A stretch of 64,000 bases of DNA from a virus. Positions 470 through 21,641 of this stretch are shown piece after piece (the stretch's first letter is position 1; every line of letters starts with the position of its first letter). The notes beneath the pieces are model-generated. The model had not been told where the DNA came from and did not search any database. It saw only the letters and a list, made by a program, of their open reading frames with translations. The stretch covers positions 16,843-80,842 of the IMG/VR virus record IMGVR_UViG_3300025870_000008; one strand, written 5' to 3'. The position numbers and the translations under genes were made by a program.

Positions 470-542
470 TAAGTACCTAACCACCAAGCACTTAGAGAGC
501 GCGGCGGCGGCGGTGCCTAACTGCTTGATATTCAACGATTTA
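470..542. repeat. Palindromic GC-core element, copy 1
   Basis: About 73 bp. The arms are imperfect inverted repeats (inner left CAAGCACTTAG, right CCTAACTGCTTGATATTCAA) around a GC-rich core with GGCGGCGGCGG. It lies directly after the stop of the gene at 258-467 and before the promoter of the next gene. It belongs to a six-copy family confined to 0.4-4.9 kb. Confidence 0.7.
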
Positions 543-569
543 AAGAATTAAAATTAATTCACTTTTTTC

Positions 570-598
570 TTGTGTTTATTTGGTGTCGGGGTTATGTT
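570..598 (+). promoter_or_regulatory. Early-type promoter for the gene at 605
   Basis: TTGTGT, 17 bp, TATGTT, 6 bp, ATG. This spacing is what fixes the start of the next gene at 605 rather than at an upstream in-frame codon. Confidence 0.5.
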
Positions 599-604
599 GT
601 TAGT

Positions 605-811
605 ATGAATCATTCAGAAAGCGGAACACGAAAAGTATTAAAACAACTGCGCAAATGCGCAGAAATTACCGAGATCAAACAAACCGCCAAAGGGCACATG
701 GTTCTCGCTGATAACGGAGCGCAAATTCTTGTTCATTTAAGCGCTCGTGCTTTTCACCCATTACGTCGTTGGCTCAAAGCTAACACTTCACTAAAATCAT
801 TAAAATTCTAA
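605..811 (+). CDS. Small basic protein, HicA-like fold possible (68 aa)
   Basis: A basic protein of 68 residues. The order helix, strand with GHMVLADNG, strand with QILVHLS, helix recalls the dsRBD-like fold of HicA/YcfA proteins, in which a GxH strand is followed by an HxxxxxxxL helix; this is pattern resemblance only. The ATG at 605 is preferred to an in-frame start at 572 because it sits 6 bp after a promoter -10 box. It is followed 2 bp later by the next gene, which is probably cotranscribed. No partner antitoxin was recognised. Confidence 0.65.
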   Translation: MNHSESGTRKVLKQLRKCAEITEIKQTAKGHMVLADNGAQILVHLSARAFHPLRRWLKANTSLKSLKF

Positions 812-813
812 TT

Positions 814-996
814 ATGACAGCAAAAGAACTAATCGAACTTATCAATTCAACCCAGGACGGAGAGATTTGGCTCTACAGTAGTAAACTTAGAGACCATCTT
901 GCCACAGTCGAGCAAGCATTGGAGGAGGATTTAATCCACTTCATCCGCGCTGACGTAGGGAACAGCACCACAGAATTCATTCGTGTTTCTATTTGA
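814..996 (+). CDS. Small hypothetical protein (60 aa)
   Basis: A 60-residue acidic protein beginning MTAKELIELINS, with a predicted N-terminal helix and a C-terminal strand (FIRVSI). Family not recognised. It starts 2 bp after the previous stop and lacks a promoter of its own at the usual spacing, so it is the second gene of a two-gene unit. The TTGACA of the following gene's promoter overlaps its stop codon. Confidence 0.65.
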   Translation: MTAKELIELINSTQDGEIWLYSSKLRDHLATVEQALEEDLIHFIRADVGNSTTEFIRVSI

Positions 997-1021
997 CACA
1001 GAGCAAAAATTAAACTACTTT
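993..1021 (+). promoter_or_regulatory. Early-type promoter for the gene at 1028
   Basis: TTGACA, 17 bp, TACTTT, 6 bp, ATG. The -35 box overlaps the stop codon of the preceding gene. Confidence 0.6.
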
Positions 1022-1027
1022 ATACTT

Positions 1028-1267
1028 ATGACAATTAAAGACAACGGAAAAGAATTCTACTTCGAGCGCTTACCTAATGGCTTGCTCAGAACTTATGACT
1101 ATGAATCAAAGTGGGATATTACATTCCAACGAGTTGACGGAGTATGGGAAGGACACCATCGAGGCGACTATATCGGCTACAAAGGCTTACTCAACAAACT
1201 CAACTTATTACAACAACAAGTAGATGCAGAAAGAGCATTAGCAAAAGATTTAGCCGAAGTAGCTTGA
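1028..1267 (+). CDS. Small hypothetical protein (79 aa)
   Basis: The N-terminal half is beta-rich (FYFERLPNGLLRTYDYE, WDITFQRVDGVWEG) and is followed by a C-terminal amphipathic helix rich in Gln, Leu and Ala. An in-frame start at 983 would overlap the previous gene, so the ATG at 1028, 6 bp after the -10 box, is chosen. Family not recognised. The stop overlaps the -35 box of the next unit. Confidence 0.65.
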   Translation: MTIKDNGKEFYFERLPNGLLRTYDYESKWDITFQRVDGVWEGHHRGDYIGYKGLLNKLNLLQQQVDAERALAKDLAEVA

Positions 1268-1292
1268 CAAACAAAACAAACTAATTTAGTTT
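1264..1292 (+). promoter_or_regulatory. Early-type promoter for the gene at 1301
   Basis: TTGACA, 17 bp, TAGTTT, 8 bp, ATG. The -35 box overlaps the stop codon of the preceding gene. Confidence 0.6.
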
Positions 1293-1300
1293 ATTATTAT

Positions 1301-1687
1301 ATGAAAACATTCGATGATTTAAAATTCACACACCATAAAGATATTCAAAGATGGACTGCATCGCTTGAGCTTGACAACGGATATTTATTTTCTGTTATTG
1401 CGGGCGACAAAGAAGACGATTGGTCTTTACCTTATGGTACTTATCAGAATGAAACTTTTGAAGTTGCAGTATTTGGTACTCAATTTGACGACAACGGAGA
1501 CAGAAAGAAAGTTCCTCTTTCTTTACATGATGATGTGCTAGGATGGCAAAAGCCTATTGACATTTCTAAACTCATGAGGCAATTTCAACTTGACGGAAAA
1601 GCTCACGAAGATTTGCTTATAGCAATTCGAGTAGACTTCAATGAAAAACTTGTTTCGCATCACGATGACAAACCTTTAGTCATTTAA
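1301..1687 (+). CDS. Hypothetical early protein (128 aa)
   Basis: A 128-residue protein with alternating strands: LELDNGYLFSVIAGDK, then a DDWSLPYGTYQNETFEVAVF segment, then an IAIRVDFNEKLVS tail. The pattern suits a single alpha/beta domain, but no family was recognised. It is the largest plus-strand gene of the early region. It has its own promoter and no Shine-Dalgarno sequence, and a new promoter begins within 2 bp of its stop. Confidence 0.75.
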   Translation: MKTFDDLKFTHHKDIQRWTASLELDNGYLFSVIAGDKEDDWSLPYGTYQNETFEVAVFGTQFDDNGDRKKVPLSLHDDVLGWQKPIDISKLMRQFQLDGKAHEDLLIAIRVDFNEKLVSHHDDKPLVI

Positions 1688-1688
1688 T

Positions 1689-1717
1689 TTGACAAACCTT
1701 AAAAACTACATTACCTT
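1689..1717 (+). promoter_or_regulatory. Early-type promoter for the gene at 1724
   Basis: TTGACA, 17 bp, TACCTT, 6 bp, ATG. It immediately follows the stop of the preceding gene. Confidence 0.6.
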
Positions 1718-1723
1718 ATTATT

Positions 1724-1990
1724 ATGACATTAACACAAGAACAAAGAATATCGGTTATCAAACACGCGCACGAAAATTCTCGTAAAGTTTCTCCGACTCA
1801 ATCAGTCGAGGATTTTATTGCAGACATCAAGTCAGAGCAAGTTTTGGGCGAGCATGGTTTAGTAGATGCTCAAGTCCACGACGTGGAGGATGAGATGTCT
1901 TTATTCGCTTATAATCCTTGCGCTGAAGATATTGACGAGGAAGAAGATGGCTTTGGAATTAGCGATGAAATGAAAGGGCTTTACTCATGA
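1724..1990 (+). CDS. Acidic hypothetical early protein (88 aa)
   Basis: It has an N-terminal helix (TLTQEQRISVIKHAHENSRK) and a strongly acidic C-terminal half (EDIDEEEDGFG). Small acidic phage early proteins often bind host proteins or mimic DNA; nothing here shows which. Family not recognised. The ATG lies 6 bp after the -10 box. The stop overlaps the start of a tiny membrane protein gene (ATGA). Confidence 0.7.
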   Translation: MTLTQEQRISVIKHAHENSRKVSPTQSVEDFIADIKSEQVLGEHGLVDAQVHDVEDEMSLFAYNPCAEDIDEEEDGFGISDEMKGLYS

Positions 1991-2046
1991 GTTTATTTGC
2001 AATCGCTATACTTGCATTAGTTTTATACTTGACAATTCAAGATTAA
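1987..2046 (+). CDS. Tiny single-pass membrane protein (19 aa)
   Basis: The ATG overlaps the TGA of the upstream gene (ATGA), an arrangement typical of translational coupling. The peptide, MSLFAIAILALVLYLTIQD, is almost one hydrophobic segment, long enough to cross a membrane once. It could be a real micro-protein acting in the host inner membrane or a chance frame; the coupling and the clean hydrophobic segment favour a gene. Confidence 0.45.
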   Translation: MSLFAIAILALVLYLTIQD

Positions 2047-2129
2047 AACTATAAACAGCGAAATACCAAATACCCAAATATTTTGTTTGTCGAAGGTGTG
2101 ATATGCAGTAGTTACTAAAACCCCCGCCC

Positions 2130-2201
2130 TAAGTCTTTGATTATCAAGCACTTAGGCGGGCGGCTGCCGAAGCACCTAAGTGCTTCAGTATCAACGACTT
2201 A
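2130..2201. repeat. Palindromic GC-core element, copy 2
   Basis: 72 bp. The left arm TAAGTCTTTGATTATCAAGC and a right arm that reads back as TAAGTCGTTGATACTGAAGC flank a GC-rich core with GGCGGGCGGCTGCCG. Each arm is itself nearly palindromic around TTGATTATCAA. It sits between convergent genes, abutting the stop of the minus-strand gene at 2202. Confidence 0.8.
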
Positions 2202-2441
2202 TTAAAAGTCGTATTGGTCGTGATAGCCGTAGTCGATGTCCTCGTAATGGTCTTCCCATACGGGGGAATCTTCAGCCTCGTACATTTCAGCGAGAAGAGG
2301 TTGCTCCTCAAGGTAGCGCTCTTCCGCAAGGGCTTGGTTTGCTCGAGCAATATCTCTATTGATCTCCTGCATTTGGTGGGCTTGCTGGTTTGCAAGGGCG
2401 GCGTGATCGTTGCGGTCGAAGTGTGAGTATTTACTAATCAT
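2202..2441 (-). CDS. Acidic helical hypothetical protein (79 aa)
   Basis: An alanine- and glutamate-rich helical stretch (residues about 12-50) is followed by a very acidic, Tyr-rich tail ending in HDQYDF. Family not recognised. The ATG at 2441 is chosen over an upstream TTG because a TTGCTA/TATGTT promoter lies 8 bp before it. It converges on the plus-strand block to its left, with a palindromic element between them. Confidence 0.65.
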   Translation of the reverse strand: MISKYSHFDRNDHAALANQQAHQMQEINRDIARANQALAEERYLEEQPLLAEMYEAEDSPVWEDHYEDIDYGYHDQYDF

Positions 2442-2449
2442 ATATAAAC

Positions 2450-2478
2450 AACATAAAGGGAGTGGCAACGGATAGCAA
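2450..2478 (-). promoter_or_regulatory. Early-type promoter for the gene at 2441
   Basis: On the minus strand: TTGCTA, 17 bp, TATGTT, 8 bp, ATG. Confidence 0.45.
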
Positions 2479-2505
2479 GAAAAAAAGCGATTTATTTTTA
2501 TTTTT

Positions 2506-2577
2506 TAAATCCTTGGTTATCAAGCACTTAGAGCTCGCGGCGGCGGGCCGATATAACTCTTTGATTATCAACATTTT
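2506..2577. repeat. Palindromic GC-core element, copy 3 (degenerate)
   Basis: 72 bp. The left arm contains TTGGTTATCAAGCACTTAG, the right arm AACTCTTTGATTATCAA, and the core is GCGGCGGCGGGCC. Its arms pair less well than in the other copies, and it lies between divergent genes, so it is the one copy that is not at a gene 3' end. Confidence 0.65.
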
Positions 2578-2606
2578 ACACAAGATAAAAAAACTAAAGA
2601 TTTTTC

Positions 2607-2635
2607 TTGCTTTATTATACAGAACATGGCATATT
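2607..2635 (+). promoter_or_regulatory. Early-type promoter for the gene at 2641
   Basis: TTGCTT, 17 bp, CATATT, 5 bp, ATG. Confidence 0.45.
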
Positions 2636-2640
2636 AAAGT

Positions 2641-2745
2641 ATGAAAAGAAAAAAACTAAAAATTATTAAAATTAAACACGCTAAATCGTATAACAAATTT
2701 ATGATTGTTAAAATGCCTAAATTCTCACTTCTTAAATCTGCTTAA
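2641..2745 (+). CDS. Tiny basic protein (34 aa)
   Basis: A strongly basic peptide (begins MKRKKLKIIKIKHAK, ends FSLLKSA) that may bind nucleic acid. The ATG follows a TTGCTT/CATATT promoter by 5 bp, matching the neighbouring genes, and the next gene starts 2 bp after its stop. Family not recognised. It is too short to prove by coding statistics; the promoter placement is the main support. Confidence 0.5.
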   Translation: MKRKKLKIIKIKHAKSYNKFMIVKMPKFSLLKSA

Positions 2746-2747
2746 TT

Positions 2748-2972
2748 ATGAATTGCAAAAGAGTACCATACCCAGAACTAGACTGCTCCCTTAAAATGAG
2801 TAAAGTGGAGGGGCTGCTTCAATTCCTTAAAGGTCAGACTATGATGGGTTGGAGAGGAAGCGAGACAGAAAAAGAAGCAATTTGCGAAGCTCTTGACAAC
2901 TTACGAGAAGCTCAAGATGAATATCAAAAAGTCTTGACATTACTTAGAAAAACCAACAAAATAGAATTATGA
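2748..2972 (+). CDS. Helical hypothetical protein (74 aa)
   Basis: After a short N-terminus with two cysteines, residues about 20-74 are helical and charged, ending in a heptad-like run (LDNLREAQDEYQKVLTLLRK). Family not recognised. It is the second gene of the unit starting at 2641 and overlaps the next gene by ATGA. The next gene's promoter lies inside its 3' end. Confidence 0.65.
   Translation: MNCKRVPYPELDCSLKMSKVEGLLQFLKGQTMMGWRGSETEKEAICEALDNLREAQDEYQKVLTLLRKTNKIEL
2934..2962 (+). promoter_or_regulatory. Internal early-type promoter for the gene at 2969
   Basis: TTGACA, 17 bp, CAAAAT, 6 bp, ATG. It lies wholly inside the upstream coding sequence. Confidence 0.5.
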
Positions 2973-3199
2973 CGGATACAACATATAATGGATGGAAAAA
3001 CTGGGCAACCTGGAACGTAGCGCTATGGCTAGGTAATGATGAGGGTCTTTATAAGATAGCTCGAAGATGTGTGAGGTATGCTGACCTCGTGGATAGGTTA
3101 GAAGAAGCTGAAGCATTCAGGACTCCTGACGGGGCGAGCTACAATGACCCCGACCTTGATACCTACGCACTTGATGAGTTGTTAATGGACGAATTCTGA
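2969..3199 (+). CDS. Conserved phage protein with NGWxNWATW motif (76 aa)
   Basis: The N-terminus YNGWKNWATWNVALWLGNDE matches a motif I know from many small phage and plasmid proteins of unknown function (NGWxNxATWxVxLWxxND). The rest is acidic with a helical C-terminus. Role unknown. It has an internal promoter and an ATGA overlap with the upstream gene, so it may be expressed both ways. Its stop is followed 3 bp later by a palindromic element. Confidence 0.75.
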   Translation: MTDTTYNGWKNWATWNVALWLGNDEGLYKIARRCVRYADLVDRLEEAEAFRTPDGASYNDPDLDTYALDELLMDEF

Positions 3200-3202
3200 T
3201 AA

Positions 3203-3278
3203 CCTAACCCGCTGACTATCAAGCACTTACGAAGCGGGCTGCCGAGCCCTCTAAGTGCTTGATTATTAGTGACTTAGG
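3203..3278. repeat. Palindromic GC-core element, copy 4
   Basis: 76 bp, from CCTAA to TTAGG. The left arm CTGACTATCAAGCACTTAC and the right arm CTAAGTGCTTGATTATTAG are inverted copies. The core contains GGGCTGCCGAGCCC, itself a hairpin. It lies between convergent genes, 3 bp after one stop and 6 bp before the other. Confidence 0.8.
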
Positions 3279-3284
3279 AGGTTG

Positions 3285-3437
3285 TTATTTATTTTTGAAT
3301 TCGTTAATGATTTGGTTAAAAGTCCAAACGTTGTTTCCAACGTCCAAGAATAGTTCTGCGCCTTCGAGTGGTTCAAAGCCTAGGCGGTCAATGATGCCTA
3401 GCTCTTCCGTCATGAATTTTTCGAGTTCTTCTGTCAT
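3285..3437 (-). CDS. Small acidic protein (50 aa)
   Basis: Begins MTEELEKFMTEELGIIDRLG and ends IINEFKNK; acidic, with a helical start. Family not recognised. It has both a TTGACA/GAGAAT promoter with 6 bp to the ATG and an AGGAG sequence upstream; that AGGAG overlaps the -10 box. The -35 box overlaps the stop codon of the upstream minus-strand gene. A plus-strand frame over this stretch is its shadow. Confidence 0.65.
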   Translation of the reverse strand: MTEELEKFMTEELGIIDRLGFEPLEGAELFLDVGNNVWTFNQIINEFKNK

Positions 3438-3443
3438 GTTTTT

Positions 3444-3472
3444 ATTCTCCTAAATTAAAGGGTTTATGTCAA
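3444..3472 (-). promoter_or_regulatory. Early-type promoter for the gene at 3437
   Basis: On the minus strand: TTGACA, 17 bp, GAGAAT, 6 bp, ATG. The -35 box contains the TGA stop of the upstream gene. Confidence 0.5.
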
Positions 3473-3813
3473 ATTAAATCGTAATATTTTGGTGAACAAT
3501 TTACTGAATGAGAAACTGAATCAATTCCCTCATCCATGTTTTTTTTCAAATATGCTTTGATTTTGTTTGCAATTTCGAGGTCAATTTTTTCAAGCTTTTT
3601 TCCGTCTTCGTCAAATATGTCCATATTTTCCAAAGTGTCGAAATATGCTATCAGGTGAGTCTCTGAGACTTGGTCGCCATAGAGCGAGTCGATTTCGTCT
3701 GTCCATGTCGTGCCTTCAATTTCACAAGTTAAATTTTCAATTTCCACATAGGCAGAAAAAGTTTCTTCGTTAATTTCGTCAAAGTTTAATTCTAGTTTTT
3801 TATTTTCTGTCAT
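3469..3813 (-). CDS. Acidic beta-rich hypothetical protein (114 aa)
   Basis: Acidic throughout, with strands around AYVEIENLTCEIEGTTW and a helical C-terminal half (DLEIANKIKAYLKK). Its length, acidity and strand/helix order resemble the protein at 5281-5601, so the two may be distant paralogues (inference only). The ATG follows the shared GATAGT box by 5 bp. Family not recognised. Confidence 0.7.
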   Translation of the reverse strand: MTENKKLELNFDEINEETFSAYVEIENLTCEIEGTTWTDEIDSLYGDQVSETHLIAYFDTLENMDIFDEDGKKLEKIDLEIANKIKAYLKKNMDEGIDSVSHSVNCSPKYYDLI

Positions 3814-3818
3814 ACCTT

Positions 3819-3847
3819 ACTATCTTCTATTTTTTAACTAAAGTCAA
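3819..3847 (-). promoter_or_regulatory. Early-type promoter for the gene at 3813
   Basis: On the minus strand: TTGACT, 17 bp, GATAGT, 5 bp, ATG. It is one of four minus-strand promoters with an identical GATAGT -10 box. Confidence 0.65.
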
Positions 3848-3927
3848 ACATATAGCCGATTATTTTACATAAAGTTATTCACAATTATCTTGGCTAGAGT
3901 TGGCACGATTCCTGTACAAGGCTTTCA

Positions 3928-3998
3928 TAAGTCGTTGATTATCAAGCTGTTACGAGAGCCGCAGCGCGTTCCCTAAGTGCTTGACTATAAGGAACTTA
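3928..3998. repeat. Palindromic GC-core element, copy 5
   Basis: 71 bp. The left arm TAAGTCGTTGATTATCAAGC is itself palindromic; the right arm is CCTAAGTGCTTGACTATAAG. The core has GAGCCGCAGCGCG. It sits 5 bp beyond the stop of the minus-strand gene at 4004. Confidence 0.8.
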
Positions 3999-4003
3999 CA
4001 ACG

Positions 4004-4174
4004 CTATCTTTGAGTCATAGCCTCTAGCTCTCGGATCTTAAAGTCAAGCTGAATTTGCATGGCTTGCAAGCGATTGACTGATTCGGTTTTATTTAGACGT
4101 TTTGCTTTTATCCTTTGGATATTGATATCCATGATTTGCTTATTTAAGAATTTGATTTGTTCTACTATATTCAT
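4004..4174 (-). CDS. Helical hypothetical protein (56 aa)
   Basis: Almost entirely helical with coiled-coil-like spacing (begins MNIVEQIKFLNKQIMD; ends FKIRELEAMTQR). Family not recognised. Its ATG overlaps the TGA of the upstream tiny gene (ATGA), and it has no promoter of its own at the usual spacing, so it should be the second gene of that unit. A palindromic element follows its stop. Confidence 0.6.
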   Translation of the reverse strand: MNIVEQIKFLNKQIMDINIQRIKAKRLNKTESVNRLQAMQIQLDFKIRELEAMTQR

Positions 4175-4287
4175 TTTCTTGACACGTCTTGGAAAAGGTC
4201 GATTTGATCGCTAGTCATATCTCTATACATAAGATAGAAAACAACTAACCAATTTGAGAACATAAGTATTTCAAGTATTGTATTCAT
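4171..4287 (-). CDS. Tiny hydrophobic protein (38 aa)
   Basis: The N-terminal half (ILEILMFSNWLVVFYLMY) is hydrophobic enough to be a membrane segment; the C-terminus is polar (SDQIDLFQDVSRK). It shares FSNWL, and a 16 bp DNA match, with the gene at 4342-4509. It begins 6 bp after a TAATCT box with TTGTCT 17 bp further up, and is coupled by ATGA to the gene at 4174. Function unknown. Confidence 0.55.
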   Translation of the reverse strand: MNTILEILMFSNWLVVFYLMYRDMTSDQIDLFQDVSRK

Positions 4288-4293
4288 GATTAT

Positions 4294-4322
4294 AGATTAA
4301 GGAAGTAGTAAACAAAAGACAA
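4294..4322 (-). promoter_or_regulatory. Early-type promoter for the gene at 4287
   Basis: On the minus strand: TTGTCT, 17 bp, TAATCT, 6 bp, ATG. Confidence 0.45.
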
Positions 4323-4341
4323 GCATATTATTGTAAGCATA

Positions 4342-4509
4342 TTATTTTTCTTTTATTTGGTTTACGATTTGCAAGTGTGGATTCTCGCGTTTGATTGCCC
4401 TTGCTTTTTCTAAGGCTTTTGCTATATTCTTTTGATTGTCTACTAGCTCGCCCCAAAGACGAATATCTAACCAATTTGAGAAGTTTACGTTTTTTGTGAT
4501 TGTTATCAT
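4342..4509 (-). CDS. Small basic hypothetical protein (55 aa)
   Basis: Begins MITITKNVNFSNWLDIRLWG; the rest is a charged helix (NIAKALEKARAIKREN). Family not recognised. It starts 10 bp after the stop of the upstream gene and has a textbook Shine-Dalgarno AGGAGG 6 bp before the ATG. This fits an internal gene of an operon whose first gene (4714) is leaderless. It shares FSNWL with the gene at 4171-4287. Confidence 0.65.
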   Translation of the reverse strand: MITITKNVNFSNWLDIRLWGELVDNQKNIAKALEKARAIKRENPHLQIVNQIKEK

Positions 4510-4519
4510 TATTGCCTCC

Positions 4520-4714
4520 TTATCTTGTGAAGTATTCTTTTACTTGTCCATTGTTAGCTTTAACCAAGTCAGAGAGGTAAACCTCTTCTGATTCGTTGTG
4601 ATGCTTTACTAAAGCTAAGCGCATTCTGTTGCTCAGTTCAGTTACTCTTACGACTTTGCCTAATGACTTCGAGAAGTACAGGCTTCCGACTTTGTATCCT
4701 TTTTCAATCTTCAT
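4520..4714 (-). CDS. Small basic beta-rich protein (64 aa)
   Basis: A basic 64-residue protein with strand-like segments (YKVGSLYFSKSLGKVVRVTEL, EEVYLSDLV) that could form a small barrel. Family not recognised. It begins 6 bp after a GATAGT -10 box and is followed by the 55 aa gene in one unit. A palindromic element lies upstream of its promoter. Confidence 0.7.
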   Translation of the reverse strand: MKIEKGYKVGSLYFSKSLGKVVRVTELSNRMRLALVKHHNESEEVYLSDLVKANNGQVKEYFTR

Positions 4715-4720
4715 ACTATT

Positions 4721-4749
4721 ACTATCGTATATTTTAGCCTCTACGTCAA
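4721..4749 (-). promoter_or_regulatory. Early-type promoter for the gene at 4714
   Basis: On the minus strand: TTGACG, 17 bp, GATAGT, 6 bp, ATG. The 12 bases before the ATG (GATAGTAATAGT) are identical to those of the gene at 5601. Confidence 0.7.
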
Positions 4750-4786
4750 ACTTTTTAACGATTTATTTTAGCTGTTTTTGCTTTCT

Positions 4787-4857
4787 TAAGTCGTTGATTA
4801 TTAGGCACTTATGACGCGGGCGGCGCGACCCCTAAGTGCTTGAATATCAGGTGTTTA
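4787..4857. repeat. Palindromic GC-core element, copy 6
   Basis: 71 bp. The left arm TAAGTCGTTGATTATTAGGC and the right arm CCTAAGTGCTTGAATATCAG flank the core GCGGGCGGCGCG. The right end contains the stop codon of the minus-strand gene at 4855-5079. Confidence 0.8.
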
Positions 4858-5079
4858 GGAATGCCGAGCTTCTAACTTATCAAGGAACTTTTCAAACCTT
4901 TTGTGCTTGACTTTTAGTTCGGCAAGTCTCTTTTCTGCTCTCCTTAGCTCGGGCATGGCAAGCATTTCGATTGCCATTTCATCTGCCTTTGGATTTGTCG
5001 AGTTCTTACGGGTGTTATCTATTACGGATTTGATTTGCTTGATCCGTGCTTCGGTGTGGATTATATCTAATTCTGTCAT
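4855..5079 (-). CDS. Helical coiled-coil-like protein (74 aa)
   Basis: Charged and helical along its whole length (begins MTELDIIHTEARIKQIKSV; ends FEKFLDKLEARHS), probably a coiled coil. Family not recognised. It starts 6 bp after GATAGT with TTGCAA as the -35 box. Its stop codon lies inside palindromic element 6, the tightest gene-element junction in the set. Confidence 0.7.
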   Translation of the reverse strand: MTELDIIHTEARIKQIKSVIDNTRKNSTNPKADEMAIEMLAMPELRRAEKRLAELKVKHKRFEKFLDKLEARHS

Positions 5080-9714: not shown

Positions 9715-10896
9715 ATGATTGACCAAATGCAAATTATAAAACATATAAAAACTAACTTACCTATAGTTTGTTTAGATCAAATAATAAAATACGAGGATAG
9801 CCAAATAGTGGACTGGGGCTTAGTACAAAATAAAATTCCAGAAACCTGGAAGGTTACAAAGGGCGAGGGCGTAAAAGTTATGGTGATTGATACTGGCCAC
9901 CCAGTCCACTCAGATATAGGCGGCAATGTGATTATAGGAGATAACTTTGTAGAAGATGAGCCTCATGAAGATCTTAATGGGCATCAAACTCATTGCACTG
10001 GAATTATATGCGCTAAAAACAATAAATTTGGCATGGTTGGGGTTGCTCCAGAGGTTCAATGTATATCAGTTAAAGCATTAAATAAAAACGGCTCTGGTAG
10101 CTTTAATGGTTTAGCTAAAGCTTTAGACTATGCGGTAAAAATAAAACCAGATATAGTTTCCATGAGTTTAGGGTCTCCAACTTACAGTGCATTAATCCAT
10201 AAAAAAATAAAAACTTTATATAATTTAAATATTCCTGTAGTATGTGCAGCGGGAAACTCTGGTAATGGCGGTGTTAATTATCCAGCGGCGTTTGAGGAAA
10301 CGATAGCGGTAGCTTCCTACAATAAGCGGGGTGGAATATCTTTTTTTTCATCAAAGGGCGAAGAGGTTGATTGGGCAGCTCCAGGGGAAAAAATATATAG
10401 TACATATTTAGGCAATAAGTATTCTGTGCTAAGCGGAACTTCTATGGCTTGCCCATTTTTGGTTGGAATTATAGCTTTAATGTTGTCGAAACACAGGTTG
10501 GAAGAGTCTCAGACTGGATACAATGACTGTAAAACAATTTCCCAAATCAAAGAGCATTTATTGAAGTATACACAAGATAAGGGGGCTAAGGGAAAAGATA
10601 ATCAATGGGGATATGGAGTAATAAATACAAAGGAAATGATCCTAGATAAAAATCCCGATGATGAATTTCCCGAGCCCCCTTTGGCACCCAAACCCAAGCC
10701 TGAACCTAAGCCTGAACCCGCCCCAAGCTTCTTAAAAAAGCATTTAGCATGGGTTGTACTCGGATTTTTCTTGTTAACAGTTGTGGCGTTTTATATTGCA
10801 TCGACTATTCAAGATGATAGCAATATAGATATTCCATACATTGATGAACAAGGAAATGTAGACTGGGACAAAAAATTTAAACTAGAAACACAATGA
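9715..10896 (+). CDS. Subtilisin-like serine protease with C-terminal membrane anchor
   Basis: 393 aa, peptidase family S8. The catalytic triad is visible: Asp in VMVIDTGH (about residue 58), His in NGHQTHCTG (about 90) and Ser in SGTSMACP (about 243), with the oxyanion Asn in AAGNSGNGG (about 180). After the catalytic domain comes a Pro/Lys/Glu-rich linker (about 315-338), a hydrophobic segment WVVLGFFLLTVVAFYIA (about 345-361) and a short acidic tail. There is no N-terminal signal peptide, so the catalytic domain probably stays cytoplasmic. It may mature virion proteins or attack host proteins at the membrane; neither is shown. It overlaps the next gene by 4 bp. Confidence 0.9.
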   Translation: MIDQMQIIKHIKTNLPIVCLDQIIKYEDSQIVDWGLVQNKIPETWKVTKGEGVKVMVIDTGHPVHSDIGGNVIIGDNFVEDEPHEDLNGHQTHCTGIICAKNNKFGMVGVAPEVQCISVKALNKNGSGSFNGLAKALDYAVKIKPDIVSMSLGSPTYSALIHKKIKTLYNLNIPVVCAAGNSGNGGVNYPAAFEETIAVASYNKRGGISFFSSKGEEVDWAAPGEKIYSTYLGNKYSVLSGTSMACPFLVGIIALMLSKHRLEESQTGYNDCKTISQIKEHLLKYTQDKGAKGKDNQWGYGVINTKEMILDKNPDDEFPEPPLAPKPKPEPKPEPAPSFLKKHLAWVVLGFFLLTVVAFYIASTIQDDSNIDIPYIDEQGNVDWDKKFKLETQ

Positions 10897-11084
10897 AAGA
10901 AGGTAAAACAATTCATTTTCATTATAATAACGAGGTTAAAACAGGGTTGATTTTAAAAATTTATACCCAAATAGGTGGGGAAAACCATCGGGAAGTAATG
11001 GTGGTAATTAGAATAAATGAGGAAAGCGGTCTTTTCGAGCAGGGTACGATAAATATAAAACATTCCGACTTACACTTAATTTAA
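10893..11084 (+). CDS. Small beta-rich hypothetical protein (63 aa)
   Basis: A 63-residue protein with strands TIHFHYNNEVKTGLILKIYT and EVMVVIRINE, likely a small barrel. The ATG overlaps the TGA of the protease gene (ATGA), so it is translationally coupled to it and may work with it. Family not recognised. Confidence 0.65.
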   Translation: MKEGKTIHFHYNNEVKTGLILKIYTQIGGENHREVMVVIRINEESGLFEQGTINIKHSDLHLI

Positions 11085-11113
11085 TTAAAATAGAAAAAAA
11101 CCAAAATTATCCG

Positions 11114-11119
11114 TATAAT
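11114..11119 (+). promoter_or_regulatory. TATAAT box upstream of 11127
   Basis: CCGTATAATATG: a TATAAT box 7 bp before the ATG at 11127, without a clear TTGACA. It may be a variant of the GTGTATAAT box at 9695. Confidence 0.35.
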
Positions 11120-11126
11120 ATGTTAT

Positions 11127-11369
11127 ATGGACATGGTAATATCTTCTTTAGTTGGCGCTGTTTCAGCTATTATTGTGGCATTTATACATTTAAAAAATGC
11201 TAAGAAACAAAAAGACAAAACTTGCGAAAAAATAATCAATAGTTTAAATGTTGATCGGGGTAATATAATTATTATTGATTCTGATAGCCGAAAGGGTTTT
11301 GATTTTAAAGGTAAAATCAAACATTTCTCAAAAGGGAGTGAAAGTAAGGTGTACATTCTAATAAGATGA
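11127..11369 (+). CDS. Small membrane protein (80 aa)
   Basis: An N-terminal membrane segment (VISSLVGAVSAIIVAFIHL, residues about 4-22) is followed by a basic stretch (KNAKKQKDK) and a short soluble beta-rich domain. The positive-inside rule puts the soluble part in the cytoplasm. It overlaps the zinc-ribbon gene by 4 bp and leads a unit with that gene and the sigma-like gene. Function unknown. Confidence 0.65.
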   Translation: MDMVISSLVGAVSAIIVAFIHLKNAKKQKDKTCEKIINSLNVDRGNIIIIDSDSRKGFDFKGKIKHFSKGSESKVYILIR

Positions 11370-11659
11370 GTGTTAAATATTGCCCCCACTGCGGAGAAAA
11401 AAATACTTTCGTTGGGAAAGCTCCTAATTTTTGTAACTATTGCGGTTCCAGCTTTAGCTCTAAAAGTATTAGTTTAAATAATCGATCTAACTCCACAACC
11501 AATACTGAACAAATTGAAACTTTTGATGCTGATTATACGGATGCAAATTACGTGCCTAATATAACTAAATTAAGTTATGAAACAGAAGGTTTTCAAAAGA
11601 AAACTTTTAAATTTGACGAGTTAATCAGTGAAGAACAACGAAAAACCCAAGAAACCTAG
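11366..11659 (+). CDS. Zinc-ribbon protein (97 aa)
   Basis: Residues 6-28 hold a four-cysteine zinc ribbon of the form CPHCGEKN...CNYCGSSF. The remaining 65 residues are Ser/Thr/Asn-rich and then acidic, probably disordered. Short zinc ribbons of this kind often contact nucleic acid or RNA polymerase. It starts by ATGA overlap with the upstream gene and its 3' end overlaps the sigma-like gene by 32 bp, so the two may act together in transcription (inference). Confidence 0.7.
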   Translation: MSVKYCPHCGEKNTFVGKAPNFCNYCGSSFSSKSISLNNRSNSTTNTEQIETFDADYTDANYVPNITKLSYETEGFQKKTFKFDELISEEQRKTQET

Positions 11660-12368
11660 AGGCAGGCCTAGGAAAAAAACTTTTGAGGATAATCAAGATT
11701 TTATATTTGAAAAAATAAATCTTAGAAAAAACTCTTGGTTTTTAAGTTCCGTAAGTTGGATATCGTGGGAGGATGTCAGCCAGATTGTTGCTCAACACAT
11801 TTATACAAAATGGCACCTTTGGGACCAAAAGAGACCTTTAACACCTTGGGTAAACAGAATTATAACCAATCAAATCAAAAATTTATTAAGAAATTACTAT
11901 GGTAATTTTTTAAGACCCTGTTCTCAGTGCCCTTTCAATAACACGGGGTCTATAGACTACTTAAACGAAAAAGAAAATGGGTGCTCTTGGACTAAATCTG
12001 GTAAGCAAGACTGCACATGCCCTTTGTTTAAAAAATGGAATAATACAAAAAAACATTCTTTTCATATAAATACTGCTAGTAGTATAGAAAGTTTAACCAC
12101 GGAGCAATCCTCTAGGGATAAAAATTTCAATATTGATCGTTCAACTGAAAAACTGCACGTTTATATGAAATCCCATTTAAACCCAAAGCAATACAAAATA
12201 TACAAAATGCTTTACATAGAACATAAAAGCCCTCAGGAGACAGCTCAATCTTTAGGCTACAAGAGTAGTGAAAAGGGTAGGCATGCTGGATATAAACAAA
12301 TTAAAAATTTTGAAAAACAGTTTAAAGAACAAGCTAAAAAAATAATTAAAAAATATGACATTATCTAA
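11628..12368 (+). CDS. Sigma-70-family-like transcription factor with AT-hook and Cys insert
   Basis: 246 aa. The N-terminus is AT-hook-like (KPRGRPRKK, residues about 8-16). A sigma region 2-like helical segment (DVSQIVAQHIYTKW...TPWVNRIITNQIKNLLRN, about 50-90) is followed by a cluster of five cysteines (CSQC...C...CTC, about 98-130). A region 4-like helix-turn-helix (LNPKQYKIYKMLYIEHK, ETAQSLGYKS, about 184-225) ends the protein. The overall layout resembles phage late sigma factors. The start is a GTG inside the zinc-ribbon gene; no in-frame ATG is available before region 2. Its likely role is to direct RNA polymerase to late promoters. Confidence 0.65.
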   Translation: MKNNEKPKKPRGRPRKKTFEDNQDFIFEKINLRKNSWFLSSVSWISWEDVSQIVAQHIYTKWHLWDQKRPLTPWVNRIITNQIKNLLRNYYGNFLRPCSQCPFNNTGSIDYLNEKENGCSWTKSGKQDCTCPLFKKWNNTKKHSFHINTASSIESLTTEQSSRDKNFNIDRSTEKLHVYMKSHLNPKQYKIYKMLYIEHKSPQETAQSLGYKSSEKGRHAGYKQIKNFEKQFKEQAKKIIKKYDII

Positions 12369-13404
12369 GGAGCAAAAACAATTTATTATTGATAATTTTA
12401 ATAAAACACCCGATTTGATTGAACTTACTAGGCAAGTATTTGATAACGAAGAGTTGGACGGTAGGACAAAAGAAGGTCGAGCGGTTCGTAAGTTTTTGGT
12501 TGAAAGAGGTTTGAAATTCAATACAACACAAAAACAAAAGAAAGAGGAGATTGAGTTCTCTCAGGAACAAAAAGAATTTATGATTCAGTATGCCAAAGAA
12601 GGTATGACGGCATATGAAATTTCAAAAATATTATTTCCTGAAGTTAATGTTACAAACTTAAGCAAGGAAGTTACAGAAGTTGCTAAGTTTATAGAAGATG
12701 TTGATTTTAGGCTTATGCATCCATCTGAAAACGCATTAAATGCTCAATATTTCCCTCCAAAATCAAATTCTAGAGTCATTAAAAAGATTAACGAATACTG
12801 CCAAGAAGAAATCGATGAAAAGCAGGTGAGTCGCGGGGAAATGGACAATATAGAGAGCACGATGAAGTTTTTGGCGGCACCTCGGTTTATTCAGGTTATT
12901 AACACTTATACATCTGTAGATGATAGAAAACTCTTTGAAGCTGAATATACAAGATCTGTATGGGATAAACCAGACTTAACAAGTGATGAATTAAATTTAT
13001 ATATCAATGTTTGTATGGATTATATACATTTAAAAAATATAAGTAAAGCTATTAATAAATTAAATAGAATGTTTGAAGATTGTGAAGATCAACAAGATAT
13101 GACTGTTAGATTAGCAGAACTATTAAAAACAAAGAGTGAAGAATATAATCAATGTGAAAAGAGACAAGAAACATTGATAGCTAGATTAAATGGAGATAGA
13201 AAAGAAAGAATAAAGAATAAACATAAAGATAATGCATCTATATTATCGTTAGTAAGATTGTTTCAAAATGAAGCTGATAGAAACAGGATGATAGACATGG
13301 CTGAGAAGCAAAAAATGCTAATCGCCCAAGAAGTTGATAATATAGAGAGGATGGATGTCTGGAAGGCTAGAGTACTCGGAATCGCTAAAGATGATGTTTT
13401 ATAG
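12355..13404 (+). CDS. Probable terminase small subunit or DNA-packaging protein
   Basis: 349 aa. The N-terminus carries two similar helix-turn-helix-like units: LSKEQKQFIIDNF...LIELTRQVF (about 3-26) and FSQEQKEFMIQYA...AYEISKILF (about 64-90). The rest is long charged helices (about 205-310) suggesting a coiled-coil oligomer. DNA-binding N-terminus, helical body and position two genes before TerL suit a small terminase, though the length is above the usual 150-200 residues. It overlaps the sigma-like gene by 14 bp. Confidence 0.55.
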   Translation: MTLSKEQKQFIIDNFNKTPDLIELTRQVFDNEELDGRTKEGRAVRKFLVERGLKFNTTQKQKKEEIEFSQEQKEFMIQYAKEGMTAYEISKILFPEVNVTNLSKEVTEVAKFIEDVDFRLMHPSENALNAQYFPPKSNSRVIKKINEYCQEEIDEKQVSRGEMDNIESTMKFLAAPRFIQVINTYTSVDDRKLFEAEYTRSVWDKPDLTSDELNLYINVCMDYIHLKNISKAINKLNRMFEDCEDQQDMTVRLAELLKTKSEEYNQCEKRQETLIARLNGDRKERIKNKHKDNASILSLVRLFQNEADRNRMIDMAEKQKMLIAQEVDNIERMDVWKARVLGIAKDDVL

Positions 13405-13489
13405 CCTAGACGGGGGTTTTCGCGGTACTTCTATCTCTTGTTGCCATTTAAGGCAATTGGAGAGAAAGGAACAATTTCTTTTTTAAAAA

Positions 13490-14419
13490 ATGAGCATACA
13501 ATGTAAAATATGTGATTCTACTTTTAAATCAGAAAGATCTTTGCATACCCATATCAAAGCTCATGGAATTTATTTATCAGATTATTATATAACATACTAT
13601 CCTAGATATAATTTATATACAAATGAATTAATTCCTTTTAAAAATAAAGGGCAATATTTTAATACGTTTTTTTCAAATAATGTTGAATTGGAAAAGTGGT
13701 TGGCGACAGCCGACTACGAACATGCACAACAAATTTTATTATTAATGCTTAAAAATAGAATAATTAGTAAAAATTTACAATATGCTCCTAATCATTTAGA
13801 ATTAAAACTGCTTGACTTACCAGAAATAAAAATATATAAAGAATTTTTTGGGTCATATAATGAAGCCTGTCGAAGGCTTCAGGTTGAGCCTTTATTCAAC
13901 CAAAGCATAAAAAGTAAATTTTTAGAAAAAAATAAAAATTTAAAAATTTTAGAGATATTAATTGATACTAGAGAGCAGCAACCTTTAAAATTCGAAAAAA
14001 GTCGTTCTATGAAATTAGATTTCGGGGACTATACTGTTGCAGGTCAAGATTACACAGCTACATACATAGACAGAAAATCAGAAACAGATTTTAAATCAAC
14101 AATGACTGTAGGATTCGAAAGATTCAATAGGGAAATGCAAAGATGTATGGATATTAATGCTTTTATGTATATAGTAATAGAAAGCTCTATAGATAAAATA
14201 AAAAGAAATAACAATTCTGGGATCCATAAATCAAATTTAAAATTTATATGGCACCAAATGAGAGTTATGTCTCATAATTATGCCAGGAGATGCCAATTTG
14301 TTTTTTCTGGAGGGAGAAAAAGATCTCAAAACTTAATTGAACTTCTCTTAAGAGGCGGGGAAGACTTATGGAATGTTGACTTGCAATACTATATCGACAA
14401 TAGAATATTAAAATTATGA
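13490..14419 (+). CDS. ERCC4-type nuclease with C2H2 zinc finger
   Basis: 309 aa. It begins with a C2H2 finger (CKICDSTF...LHTHIKAH, residues 5-25). Near residue 157 starts an ERCC4/XPF-type nuclease domain with LIDTREQQPL, then GDYTVAG, then YIDRKSETDF, in the canonical order D-x-REQ, GDY, (E/D)RK; the usual GDx(n)ERK glutamate is Asp here. It probably cuts branched DNA, and its position next to TerL suggests clearing structures before packaging. It overlaps TerL by 4 bp (ATGA). Confidence 0.8.
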   Translation: MSIQCKICDSTFKSERSLHTHIKAHGIYLSDYYITYYPRYNLYTNELIPFKNKGQYFNTFFSNNVELEKWLATADYEHAQQILLLMLKNRIISKNLQYAPNHLELKLLDLPEIKIYKEFFGSYNEACRRLQVEPLFNQSIKSKFLEKNKNLKILEILIDTREQQPLKFEKSRSMKLDFGDYTVAGQDYTATYIDRKSETDFKSTMTVGFERFNREMQRCMDINAFMYIVIESSIDKIKRNNNSGIHKSNLKFIWHQMRVMSHNYARRCQFVFSGGRKRSQNLIELLLRGGEDLWNVDLQYYIDNRILKL

Positions 14420-16275
14420 GCTGGGAAAAAGGCAATCAAAAAAGAAACGAAAAAATCGACATTAATTCTTTAATTAGGTCGAAAGAAGGGTTTTTACCTG
14501 AGAAGGAGGCTAAACTTCTTTTGTATCAATTCTTGCGAGAAAATGTCACATTTACCACTAACCTTTTAGCTGGAGTGGATTTATTTCCTTTTCAGCACAT
14601 GGCGGTTAAATCGATGTTTGAATCTGATTATTTCTTGGGCATATGGTCTAGAGGTATGTCCAAGTCTTGGACAACGGGGATTTTTGCATTTATGGATGCT
14701 ATTATGAATCAAGGTGTTGACATAGGAATATTATCAAAATCCTTTAGGCAAGCCAAAATGATTTTTAAAAAAATTGAAGATATAGCTGCAAAACCTGAAG
14801 CTAAATATTTATCCAACTGCATTACAAGAGTATCAAAACAAAACGATGAGTGGGTAATGGAAATTGGTGAAAGTTCAATACGGGCACTGCCCTTGGGGGA
14901 CGGATCGAAATTAAGAGGTTTTAGGTTTCACAGGATTATCATTGACGAAATGCTATTGATGCCAGAAAGAGTTTATAATGAAGTTATCGTACCGTTTCTG
15001 TCTGTAGTGCAAAACCCAAAAGAAAGAGAGGATATGCACAATTTAGAAACAAAACTTATCTCAGAAGGAAAAATGAAAGAAGAAGATAGGTATAAATGGC
15101 CGAACAATAAACTAATAATGCTATCTTCTGCCAGTTACAAGTTTGAATACCTCTACAAACTATACGAAAATTTTGAAAATCTTATCGTTAAAGAGGGGCA
15201 AACTGGAGGAGCGTCTCGATCTATAATGCACTTTTCATACGATTGTGCTCCCAAGCAGTTATACGATCAAAATCTAGTTGAACAAGCTAGATCCACAATG
15301 AGTCAGAGTCAATATGATAGAGAATTTGGTGCGGTATTCACAGATGACAGTTCTGGATATTTCAAGATATCGACGATGGAGAGGTGCACGGTAAAAGAGG
15401 GCGATAGCCCTCATGTAGAAGTAAAGGGTAGCGAAAATGATTCGTATATAATTTCTTTCGATCCAAGTTGGGCGGAATCAGAAAGCTCTGATGATTTTGC
15501 TATACAAGTGTTTAAAATACATAAAAAATCGAACCAAGCTACTTTGGTTCATGTATATGCAATGGCTGGAGAAAATTTAAAAAATCATATTAATTATTTT
15601 CATTATTTACTAACTAGTTTTAATGTGGTTGCTATGGTGGGAGATTACAATGGCGGTGTCCAATTTATCAATGCTGTAAAAGAAAGCTCTTTATTTAAAT
15701 CTTCAAATATAAAATTAAATATAATCGAGACAGAGTTTGATGATCTAGAAAATTATCAAAAATCTTTAATGTCCGCTAAGAGGGAATTTTCCAAAGATGG
15801 CATTCCGTGTTGCCTTAGGAAACCTACTTCCGAATGGATTAGAAGGGCAAACGAATTACTACAAGCTAATTTTGATCATCGAAGAGTATGGTTTGCATCG
15901 CAAGCGGTCGATGATAGTTTTCAATCTCAAAGAAGAAAGAAAGTACCGATCAAAAATTTGCGATTCATGAATTTTACAGATGTTGACGAGAATCAATCTG
16001 AAGGAGCTAGAATGATTGACTTCATAGAGCATCAACAAGAAATGATAATATATACAAAATCTCAATGCGCTCTAATAGAAGTTAGATCCTCACCCCAAGG
16101 AACACAAACTTTTGATTTACCTTTAACACTGAAAAAAACCACTGGGCCTAGTAAGGTAAGAAAAGACTGCTACTCGGCTCTGATTCTAGGATCTTGGATG
16201 GTTAAAATTTACAACGATATTAATAATTCAAAAGAAGAAGCTTTTAATAGCTTTGTTCCAATGTTTATAAAGTAA
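14416..16275 (+). CDS. terL: Terminase large subunit
   Basis: 619 aa, the motor that packages DNA into the prohead. ATPase motifs: adenine-binding FPFQ (about residue 57), a deviant Walker A SRGMSKSW (about 78-86), Walker B RIIIDEM (about 173-179). The C-terminal RNase H-fold nuclease shows acidic positions in SFDPSW (about 350), GDYNGG (about 409) and RKDCYSALI (about 582). The length is typical of T4-like terminases. It is directly upstream of the portal gene, separated by a GTGTA box. Confidence 0.92.
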   Translation: MSWEKGNQKRNEKIDINSLIRSKEGFLPEKEAKLLLYQFLRENVTFTTNLLAGVDLFPFQHMAVKSMFESDYFLGIWSRGMSKSWTTGIFAFMDAIMNQGVDIGILSKSFRQAKMIFKKIEDIAAKPEAKYLSNCITRVSKQNDEWVMEIGESSIRALPLGDGSKLRGFRFHRIIIDEMLLMPERVYNEVIVPFLSVVQNPKEREDMHNLETKLISEGKMKEEDRYKWPNNKLIMLSSASYKFEYLYKLYENFENLIVKEGQTGGASRSIMHFSYDCAPKQLYDQNLVEQARSTMSQSQYDREFGAVFTDDSSGYFKISTMERCTVKEGDSPHVEVKGSENDSYIISFDPSWAESESSDDFAIQVFKIHKKSNQATLVHVYAMAGENLKNHINYFHYLLTSFNVVAMVGDYNGGVQFINAVKESSLFKSSNIKLNIIETEFDDLENYQKSLMSAKREFSKDGIPCCLRKPTSEWIRRANELLQANFDHRRVWFASQAVDDSFQSQRRKKVPIKNLRFMNFTDVDENQSEGARMIDFIEHQQEMIIYTKSQCALIEVRSSPQGTQTFDLPLTLKKTTGPSKVRKDCYSALILGSWMVKIYNDINNSKEEAFNSFVPMFIK

Positions 16276-16301
16276 CTTTAATTTTACTTTTTAACTTTTA
16301 T

Positions 16302-16306
16302 GTGTA
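16302..16306 (+). promoter_or_regulatory. Late-type GTGTA box upstream of portal gene
   Basis: GTGTACTAT, 23 bp before the ATG at 16325. A matching TATACAC 9 bp downstream makes an inverted repeat of the box. Confidence 0.45.
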
Positions 16307-16324
16307 CTATTAATATACACAGCT

Positions 16325-18400
16325 ATGAGCGAAAAAACAAAACGAAAGTACATTAAGAAGTCCCAATACTGGAACAATATTAAAAAAGAAAACCCTCAAT
16401 CAGGCGGCGGGGGAAAACATATAGAGCCTGTTAGCTGCGGGGATAACTACTATATTAGTAATGCTAGTTATAGTAATAGTTTGAAGCCAGAATTTACTTC
16501 GACCACCTCCGCTAGCAATGTAGTCAGCGATGCTTTAAGAAATGTTGACTCTTCCACTACGAGAACTAGAGGCAGAGCTGGAATCAAGAATTTAGCTCAT
16601 AAATATAAAAATATTTCTGATGGAGTACTACCTTATAATGTAAGCTCTGACGGTGTAGATGTTCGGGAGAGTATTGAGTTATGCCAAAAAGCATATGCCA
16701 ATATACCTATATTTAGAAACGCTATAGATGTTATGTCTGAGTTTTCAAATTCTGAAATATATCTTGAAGGCGGCAGTGAAAGTGCTAGAAATTTTATATA
16801 CAAATGGTTTGAGAAAATAAACTTATGGAAATTAAAAGATCAGTATTTTAGAGAATATTATAGATCTGGAAATATATTTTTATATAGAATTGATGGGACT
16901 TTTAATAAAAATGATATTATTAATTTAAATAAAGTTTATGGAGCTGAATATAATAAATATCTAAACCCTGGTAAAATACCAGTAAGATATATACTACTCA
17001 ATCCTTACGATATATCTTCAAATAGAGCAACTTCGTTTGAATCAGGAGCGTATAAAAAAGTTTTATCAGAATACGAGTTAGAAAGGTTAAAAAACCCTAC
17101 AACTCAAGAAGACCAGGATATATTCGATTCGCTAGACGATAAAACAAAAAAATTGATAAAAAAAGGTGGGTTTCATAGAACTGGAGTGTTAATGCCTCTA
17201 GATCCAGAAAAGTTAATATACTCGTTTTACAAAAAACAAGATTACGAACCTTTTGCTGTACCATTTGGGTTTCCAGTTTTAGATGACTTGAATTGGAAAA
17301 TAGAGCTTAAAAAAATTGATCAAGCAATTAGCAGAACTATTGAAAATGTAGTACTATTAATTACTATGGGAGCTGAACCTGACAAAGGAGGGGTCAACCC
17401 GCATAGTTTAACTGCTATGCAATGTTTGTTTCAAAACGAAAGTGTTGGTAGGGTGTTAGTCAGCGACTATACAACAAAAGCAGACTTCGTAATGCCAGAT
17501 GTTAATAAAATTTTAGGCCCTCAAAAATACGAAATAGTCAATCAAGATATTCGAGAGGGCTTGCAAAATATTATAGTAGGTAAAGAAAATTATTCTAGCA
17601 CTCAAATAAAAGCTCAAATATTTTTAGAAAGATTAAAAGAAGCTAGAAATGCATTTATAAATGATTTCATCATGCCGCAGGTAAAAATATTATGCAAAAG
17701 CATGGGTTTTAGAAAATACCCAACGGTTAAATTTCAAGAAATAGATATCAAAGATGAAGTTCAATTCCAAAGAGTGATAACTAGATTGCTAGAGATTGGA
17801 ATTATTACACCTGAGCAGGGTATGAATGCAATTCGAACAGGGTTGTTTCCTCATGCAGACGATTTAGAACAAGCTCAAGAAAAATATATAGAAGATAGAG
17901 AAAAGGGGATGTATAATCCTTTAGTTGGCGGAGTACCTTTGGTTGAAGCTGCAGGGGCTGAAGAGGATCGGGGATTACAAAAACAACAAATAAAAGAATC
18001 AACCAAACAGCAGAAAATAAACCAAAACAAGCCAGAGCAACAAGCTGTGAAAAAAGAGCCTGGCAGACCTACGGGAGCTACAGCAAGTAAAAATTATTCA
18101 AGAAAAAATATTCAAAATATTATTTATGAAATAGAAAAATTACGATCATTAGCTTCTGATAAGATTAAAAAAACTCATAAAGTTAAAAGGCTAAACAAAG
18201 AACAAAATAAAATTATAGATACTCTTACGGAATCTATAGTTATATCAACTCAAAAAACAGAATGGGGTAAACAATTAGATAGTTGTATAAAAAAACCAGA
18301 AACCTTAGAAAAGCTAAACAGCTTAAGAGAGGTTGCAGAAGTTGGTAGCAAGCACGGCCTTCCCGAGTATCCAGCTGCAATATTATATCACAGCCAATAA
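16325..18400 (+). CDS. Portal protein
   Basis: 691 aa. The portal forms the dodecameric ring through which DNA enters and leaves the head. The call rests on position after TerL, on the length and on the portal-like core: long helices in the middle (SRTIENVVLLITMGAEP, about residues 337-353; IKAQIFLERLKEARNAFINDFI, about 428-449), a wing segment with beta strands before it, and a basic Gln/Lys-rich C-terminal tail (from about 560). The first 100 residues are low-complexity and may extend into the head. Confidence 0.85.
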   Translation: MSEKTKRKYIKKSQYWNNIKKENPQSGGGGKHIEPVSCGDNYYISNASYSNSLKPEFTSTTSASNVVSDALRNVDSSTTRTRGRAGIKNLAHKYKNISDGVLPYNVSSDGVDVRESIELCQKAYANIPIFRNAIDVMSEFSNSEIYLEGGSESARNFIYKWFEKINLWKLKDQYFREYYRSGNIFLYRIDGTFNKNDIINLNKVYGAEYNKYLNPGKIPVRYILLNPYDISSNRATSFESGAYKKVLSEYELERLKNPTTQEDQDIFDSLDDKTKKLIKKGGFHRTGVLMPLDPEKLIYSFYKKQDYEPFAVPFGFPVLDDLNWKIELKKIDQAISRTIENVVLLITMGAEPDKGGVNPHSLTAMQCLFQNESVGRVLVSDYTTKADFVMPDVNKILGPQKYEIVNQDIREGLQNIIVGKENYSSTQIKAQIFLERLKEARNAFINDFIMPQVKILCKSMGFRKYPTVKFQEIDIKDEVQFQRVITRLLEIGIITPEQGMNAIRTGLFPHADDLEQAQEKYIEDREKGMYNPLVGGVPLVEAAGAEEDRGLQKQQIKESTKQQKINQNKPEQQAVKKEPGRPTGATASKNYSRKNIQNIIYEIEKLRSLASDKIKKTHKVKRLNKEQNKIIDTLTESIVISTQKTEWGKQLDSCIKKPETLEKLNSLREVAEVGSKHGLPEYPAAILYHSQ

Positions 18401-18406
18401 TTTATT

Positions 18407-18411
18407 GTGTA
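18407..18411 (+). promoter_or_regulatory. Late-type GTGTA box
   Basis: GTGTACAAG, 16 bp before the ATG at 18423, preceded by an A/T run. Confidence 0.4.
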
Positions 18412-18422
18412 CAAGTTGAATA

Positions 18423-20060: not shown

Positions 20061-20063
20061 TAT

Positions 20064-21629: not shown

Positions 21630-21641
21630 CAAAAACGAAAA

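Follow-up and report, generated by a model that had tools for sequence, protein, structure and literature searches.

The window analysed here is a 64,000-nt stretch of DNA corresponding to positions 16843-80842 of an 80,842-bp virus record (IMG/VR IMGVR_UViG_3300025870_000008); the left remainder of that record is referred to as L007. The left end of the window carries a series of short palindromic elements. The first-pass annotation had listed six copies, and all six are present, but a two-arm scan of the whole record found 11, at record positions 10491-21699, with five lying left of the window (beginning at record 10491, 11431, 12999, 14464 and 15999; span 10491-16071); the count of six is a window effect. 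The rest of the record contains no copy, which bears out the earlier remark that none is seen after the first 5 kb of the window, and the reversed sequence of the 80,842-bp record gave 0 copies in the same type of scan, which puts the family well beyond what chance would give. Two sets of coordinates had to be adjusted: the fourth copy, at 3205-3276, is two bases shorter at each end, and the array-wide scan placed the third at 2506-2578. Copies are spaced 0.4-1.7 kb apart, and the block that they form has a rIIA-like gene region on one side and structural genes on the other. Genes were predicted with a home-made caller and clustered by blastp. The features in the window are:

470..542, + strand: copy 6 of 11, 73 bp, core 23 bp; begins 3 bp past the stop of ORF 258-467
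543..2129, + strand: cassette flanked by copies 6 and 7; every gene is on the + strand, and the gene pair of clusters 34 and 35 is among them
2130..2201, + strand: copy 7, 72 bp, core 22 bp; convergent junction, weak polarity
2506..2578, - strand: copy 8, 73 bp, core 23 bp; divergent junction
2579..3204, + strand: cassette between copies 8 and 9, with a DUF7249 gene (2969-3199; cluster 10)
3205..3276, - strand: copy 9, 72 bp, core 22 bp; convergent junction, begins 6 bp past the stop of ORF 2969-3199
3900..3915, + strand: sigma-54-promoter-like motif TTGGCACGATTCCTGT, beside copy 10
3928..3998, - strand: copy 10, 71 bp, core 21 bp; adjoins the stop of ORF 4004-4174 (-)
4787..4857, - strand: copy 11, 71 bp, core 21 bp; overlaps ORF 4855-5079 (-), whose stop codon forms the final three bases of the element

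As annotated, the cores are GC-rich (21-23 bp, in a 35% GC genome) and differ from copy to copy. The ORF ends confirmed that five of the six copies touch the 3' end of a gene and that two, at 2130-2201 and 3205-3276, lie between convergent genes; the end of copy 7 adjoins the stop of ORF 2202-2468 (-). Copy 8 sits at a divergent junction and is flanked on each side by an outward-pointing promoter leader of the TTTTTTCTTG type. A promoter-like sequence, TTGTGT-N17-TATGTT, is found 3' of copy 6 at about 570-598, and the cassette that follows contains inner TTGACA promoter-like sites at 993, 1264 and 1689, all without an element. The gene pair of clusters 34 and 35 in this cassette is found together in most relatives. 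The array, whose first element starts at 10491, is directly preceded by a manA cis-regulatory RNA (L007 9475-9677, +; Rfam RF01745, 77.8 bits), which likewise lies left of the window. The Rfam search returned no family at the elements themselves, and the titles and abstract openings listed for the inner box sequence point to unrelated work.

The first-pass annotation had made its reading depend on conservation of the arms in related phages, and the arms are conserved. In IMG/VR, 106 stretches matched a strict inner-box pattern, about 40 of which, by inspection, shared the full architecture. Thirty-eight records, picked by inspection mostly from these stretches, were scanned whole, and the arm pattern was far above control in most of them. 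We read 24 records in detail, this record and near-duplicates included; in each, 7-21 elements with a spacing of about 1 kb form a single array that occupies a block of roughly 5-20 kb. Beyond the present record, arrays are carried by more than 20 uncultured viral contigs, several being 200-230 kb long, and element length across the virus family is 71-78 bp. The array of G020 encodes within it an HNH endonuclease with a possible helix-turn-helix (L170 14476-15030, -). Among 84,980 prokaryotic genomes, a single contig matched a stringent pattern, in a metagenome-assembled genome labelled Borreliella; this contig (L114, DYOB01000091.1) carries elements and is probably phage DNA put in the wrong bin. 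The phages fall into two clades. In that of the present phage the cores measure 21-23 bp; in the second, which is larger, 203 of 205 elements have a core of exactly 28 bp. The two share structural and replication genes, in diverged form, and likewise the DUF7249 gene cluster, which occurs in cassettes of both clades. No close isolate relative was found, the best terminase matches among those listed being 22-25% identical. One phage record encodes a DUF1501 protein (L197 7154-8263, +; E 2e-97), an unusual phage cargo that hints at a planctomycete-type host.

Each element is composed of four 9-bp boxes (TAAGTNNTT) that make up two 9-7-9 palindromes around a GC-rich core. An arm reads TAAGTNNTT-N7-AANNACTTA, and the conserved part is the 9-7-9; in the second clade, flanks lengthen the arm by CG before it and CGNCAA after it. 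The arms had been described as palindromic around TTGATTATCAA; they are indeed near-palindromic, but that centre is typical of this clade only. Orientation by expectation-maximisation revealed a clear polarity, with a median score of 17.6 bits versus 3.8-4.8 in null sets. This polarity follows transcription: nearly every element of most arrays has the direction of the genes, and in this clade 25 forward and 11 reverse elements were found between + genes versus 1 forward and 10 reverse between - genes. The elements are almost always intergenic and usually lie directly 5' of a promoter.

In the second clade, a strong sigma-70-like promoter was found within 150 bp after 177 of 201 elements, versus 14 of 201 in shuffled sequences, most often at a distance of 20, 30-31 or 41 bp. 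These distances are only suggestive of helical phasing between element and promoter; a periodicity test on the clusters near 20, 30 and 41 bp singled out no helical repeat. In this clade, the standard promoter model did not exceed the control. By eye, most elements with a forward gene next in line are followed by a conserved promoter-type leader, CTTTTTTCTTGYGT and then a TANTRT-like box immediately 5' of the start codon. Promoter-like sites without an element also occur within cassettes, thus what an element marks is a cassette and not each promoter. No promoter adjoins the elements at convergent junctions; since there are in addition a copy at a divergent junction and element-free inner promoters, no single simple role in transcription fits all copies. 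The sigma-54-promoter-like motif TTGGCAY-N5-TTGC was counted 53 times in 304 kb of array DNA, in both clades, versus once in 703 kb outside, mostly 10-17 bp beyond an element and directed towards it; the search for a sigma-54 activator gene in 18 records returned just two generic AAA+ matches. In second-clade arrays, a short conserved stem, CCTTACGANATNGTAAGG, lies between element and promoter, 3' of several elements, and several phages have a leader ending in TGATATCAAAGWAGCCACGGTTAAATG that is conserved at the DNA level. A weak match to sigma-70 region 2 (E 3e-4, below the Pfam cut-off) came from a protein family present in both clades (window 11628-12368 and relatives).

Gene order was compared among records that are partly fragments, using a caller that misses small genes; G000/G008 and G003/G013 are near-duplicates, and G008, G003 and G013 were excluded from the adjacency counts. 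The genomes are related, so the pairwise counts are not independent. In this clade, gene adjacency was kept in 96% of cases outside arrays and in 95% within segments between elements, versus 41% across elements. The corresponding values in the second clade were 89%, 84% and 81%; because 81% across is close to 84% within, shuffling at the elements is a finding for this clade only. Several gene sets, namely [6 6 30], [31 32], [33 43 52], [34 35] and [42 51], recur as units in varying order. DNA similarity ended inside elements in 37 of 160 cases in this clade (11 expected) and in 97 of 973 in the second clade (70 expected). Certain elements have a chimeric look, the two parts meeting in the core. 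In the element at G021:36459, the left half is identical (35/35) to that of the element that follows the same upstream gene in G023, the right half is 83% identical to the element that lies ahead of the same downstream gene in G032, and the switch falls in the core. Averaged by gene family, half-element tests gave weak signals (p 0.46 and 0.03 in this clade; 0.04 and 0.27 in the second), as did the crossover-position signal in the second clade, thus the junction position rests on examples. Homology-dependent recombination through matching 7-bp arm centres was rejected, as the centres of neighbouring elements show no match. Eight of 12 records have a RecA-family gene, and the simplest account is homologous recombination at the repeated regulatory modules.

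We then weighed what kind of site the elements are. The first-pass annotation had suggested that each could fold as one long hairpin or two small ones, and such folds are predicted for most copies, but neither is backed by covariation. Inverted comparisons of the boxes in the second clade fell below expectation (A-D z -5.6, C-D -5.1, A-B -3.4, B-C -2.5), direct comparisons (A-C, B-D) gave z near zero, and pairing identity of boxes and spacers was at or below shuffled values. Seed elements were found via the inner boxes, which biases those boxes and not the unscored positions; the pairing deficit is also present at positions 6-7, outside the scoring of the element scan, and is therefore not merely a product of the score threshold. 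Native second-clade elements are slightly less stable than elements with swapped halves (-21.2 versus -23.2 kcal/mol), and in this clade the two do not differ in energy. A hairpin or cruciform function was rejected on covariation and fold energy. For an element acting at the RNA level, as a bidirectional terminator or a hairpin processed by RNase III at the end of every gene group, one can cite the frequent position at gene 3' ends, convergent ones included, and predicted hairpins of up to about -38 kcal/mol. This reading is nonetheless improbable, given that pairing lacks covariation and is mildly avoided, that one copy sits at a divergent junction, and that a true T-tract terminator directly precedes the element at L007:14464. 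The terminator option of the annotation found no support: the elements have no T-tract, and terminator-like structures are formed by just 3 of 53 elements in one set and 2 of 198 in the other, almost none, and intrinsic termination was rejected. The RNase III option is likewise not supported, given the same lack of conserved box pairing. It is mainly because this pairing is not conserved, and mildly avoided, that we read the palindromes as protein sites.

Protein sites could serve purposes other than gene control. If a recombinase of unrecognised type bound the 9-7-9 arms and exchanged strands there, the elements would be dedicated site-specific recombination sites, a phage counterpart of integrons; the array layout, the common polarity, cassettes with their genes on one strand and chimeric elements joined within the core would follow, and the arms are shaped like tyrosine-recombinase core sites. 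We consider this unlikely. Tyrosine and serine recombinases (PF00589, PF00239) gave no match in 20 records, several of which are only fragments and several 200-230 kb long, and Y1 transposases (PF01797) gave none in 12; in addition, the 7-bp arm centres of neighbouring elements differ, and gene order in the second clade is well kept. A phage-specific cassette system, in which dedicated machinery at the double palindromes would excise and insert early-gene cassettes, is likewise distinctly unlikely; if true, it would be an integron-like device in giant phages without an integron integrase. Many similar protein-type sites in one genome block would also suit DNA organisation, segregation, replication or packaging, to which we assign a low probability, as the elements are nearly always intergenic, promoter-associated and polar with transcription. 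The annotated option of a binding site thus stands in kind, with conserved boxes, near-fixed spacing and polarity, but not in the replication or partition role proposed, since where the elements lie speaks for transcription units and the borders of cassettes instead. A transposing miniature element of the MITE or REPIN type, also among the earlier options, would explain repeated palindromes with terminal symmetry; it is highly improbable, because the copies are diverged and restricted to a single block, where they occupy cassette boundaries, prokaryotic genomes have virtually none, no Y1 transposase was found in 12 records, and it is the cassettes between copies that move.

We therefore hold, with moderate confidence and on sequence comparison, that the element is an operator-like cassette-boundary module, probably bound as duplex DNA by a putative protein, which also acts as a recombination joint for early-gene cassettes. 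The elements would be polar bipartite binding modules at the boundaries of separately promoted gene cassettes, in a small-gene region of a lineage of uncultured tailed phages of about 200-230 kb. The two 9-7-9 palindromes may accommodate one protein dimer each, with 46-53 bp between the two across the core. Once bound, the protein would keep the outgoing transcription unit apart from the incoming one, blocking read-through and/or regulating the promoter that usually lies about 20-41 bp downstream. Because the same site recurs at every boundary, the elements would also be a place of recombination, with cassettes exchanged within the core or close to it; homologous recombination would be the simplest route.

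Early regions of phages undergo rapid gene turnover, and how genes arrive already equipped with regulation is poorly understood. The arrays provide a clear case: cassette edges carry a single conserved module that comes with a promoter and a likely binding site, and in one clade gene order breaks at these edges. The motif can be used to find and delimit early-gene cassettes in uncultured giant phages, and the element family offers a concrete search target, the protein that reads the motif.

Integron attC sites are palindromic, end each cassette with a common polarity and have two-box arms; they are recognised as folded single strands by a tyrosine recombinase integrase encoded with the array. 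The present elements resemble them as palindromic, two-box-armed cassette-end sites of common polarity, but 0 of 20 records, several of them fragments, match PF00589, and box pairing is at or below shuffled values. REP/REPIN elements are set apart by their Y1 (RAYT-type) transposase, since 0 of 12 records match PF01797. The nearest known kinds are T4 PeSLs, ESAS repeats and stoperators, none of which is a full match. PeSLs are promoter/stem-loop cassettes of T4-like phages, reportedly described by Arbiol in 2010 and Comeau in 2014 (both cited in PMC4503421). They are reported to be composite intergenic modules with an early promoter, dense where genes shuffle. The present elements share the promoter beside the element in the second clade (177 of 201; a by-eye leader in this clade) and the gene-shuffling boundary in this clade (41% versus 95%), not in the second. 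PeSLs carry a stem-loop, whereas here pairing is not conserved, intrinsic terminators are nearly absent and the anatomy is that of a four-box protein site.

The ESAS repeats of Cluster K mycobacteriophages are paired imperfect inverted repeats before some non-structural genes, mostly in one orientation and with little support for mRNA hairpins (PMC3203893), all of which recalls the present elements in pairing, orientation and scant hairpin support. They consist of 17-bp repeats with spacers of mostly 4-13 bp, tied to a 13-bp start-site motif (PMC3203893), whereas here the arms are 25 bp, the cores 21-28 bp, no motif of that kind was noticed from element to start codon, and cassettes shuffle. 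Stoperators of Cluster A mycobacteriophages (PMC4351075) are likewise dispersed polar protein sites oriented with transcription, but they are short, asymmetric prophage-repressor sites, and here no integrase was found (PF00589, 20 records). The 17-bp palindromic repeats of Cluster O mycobacteriophages differ in being unoriented, in lying within genes in about a third of cases and in forming one simple 7-3-7 dyad; they are likewise phage-specific dispersed dyads, and recombination between their copies has been proposed (PMC4351075).
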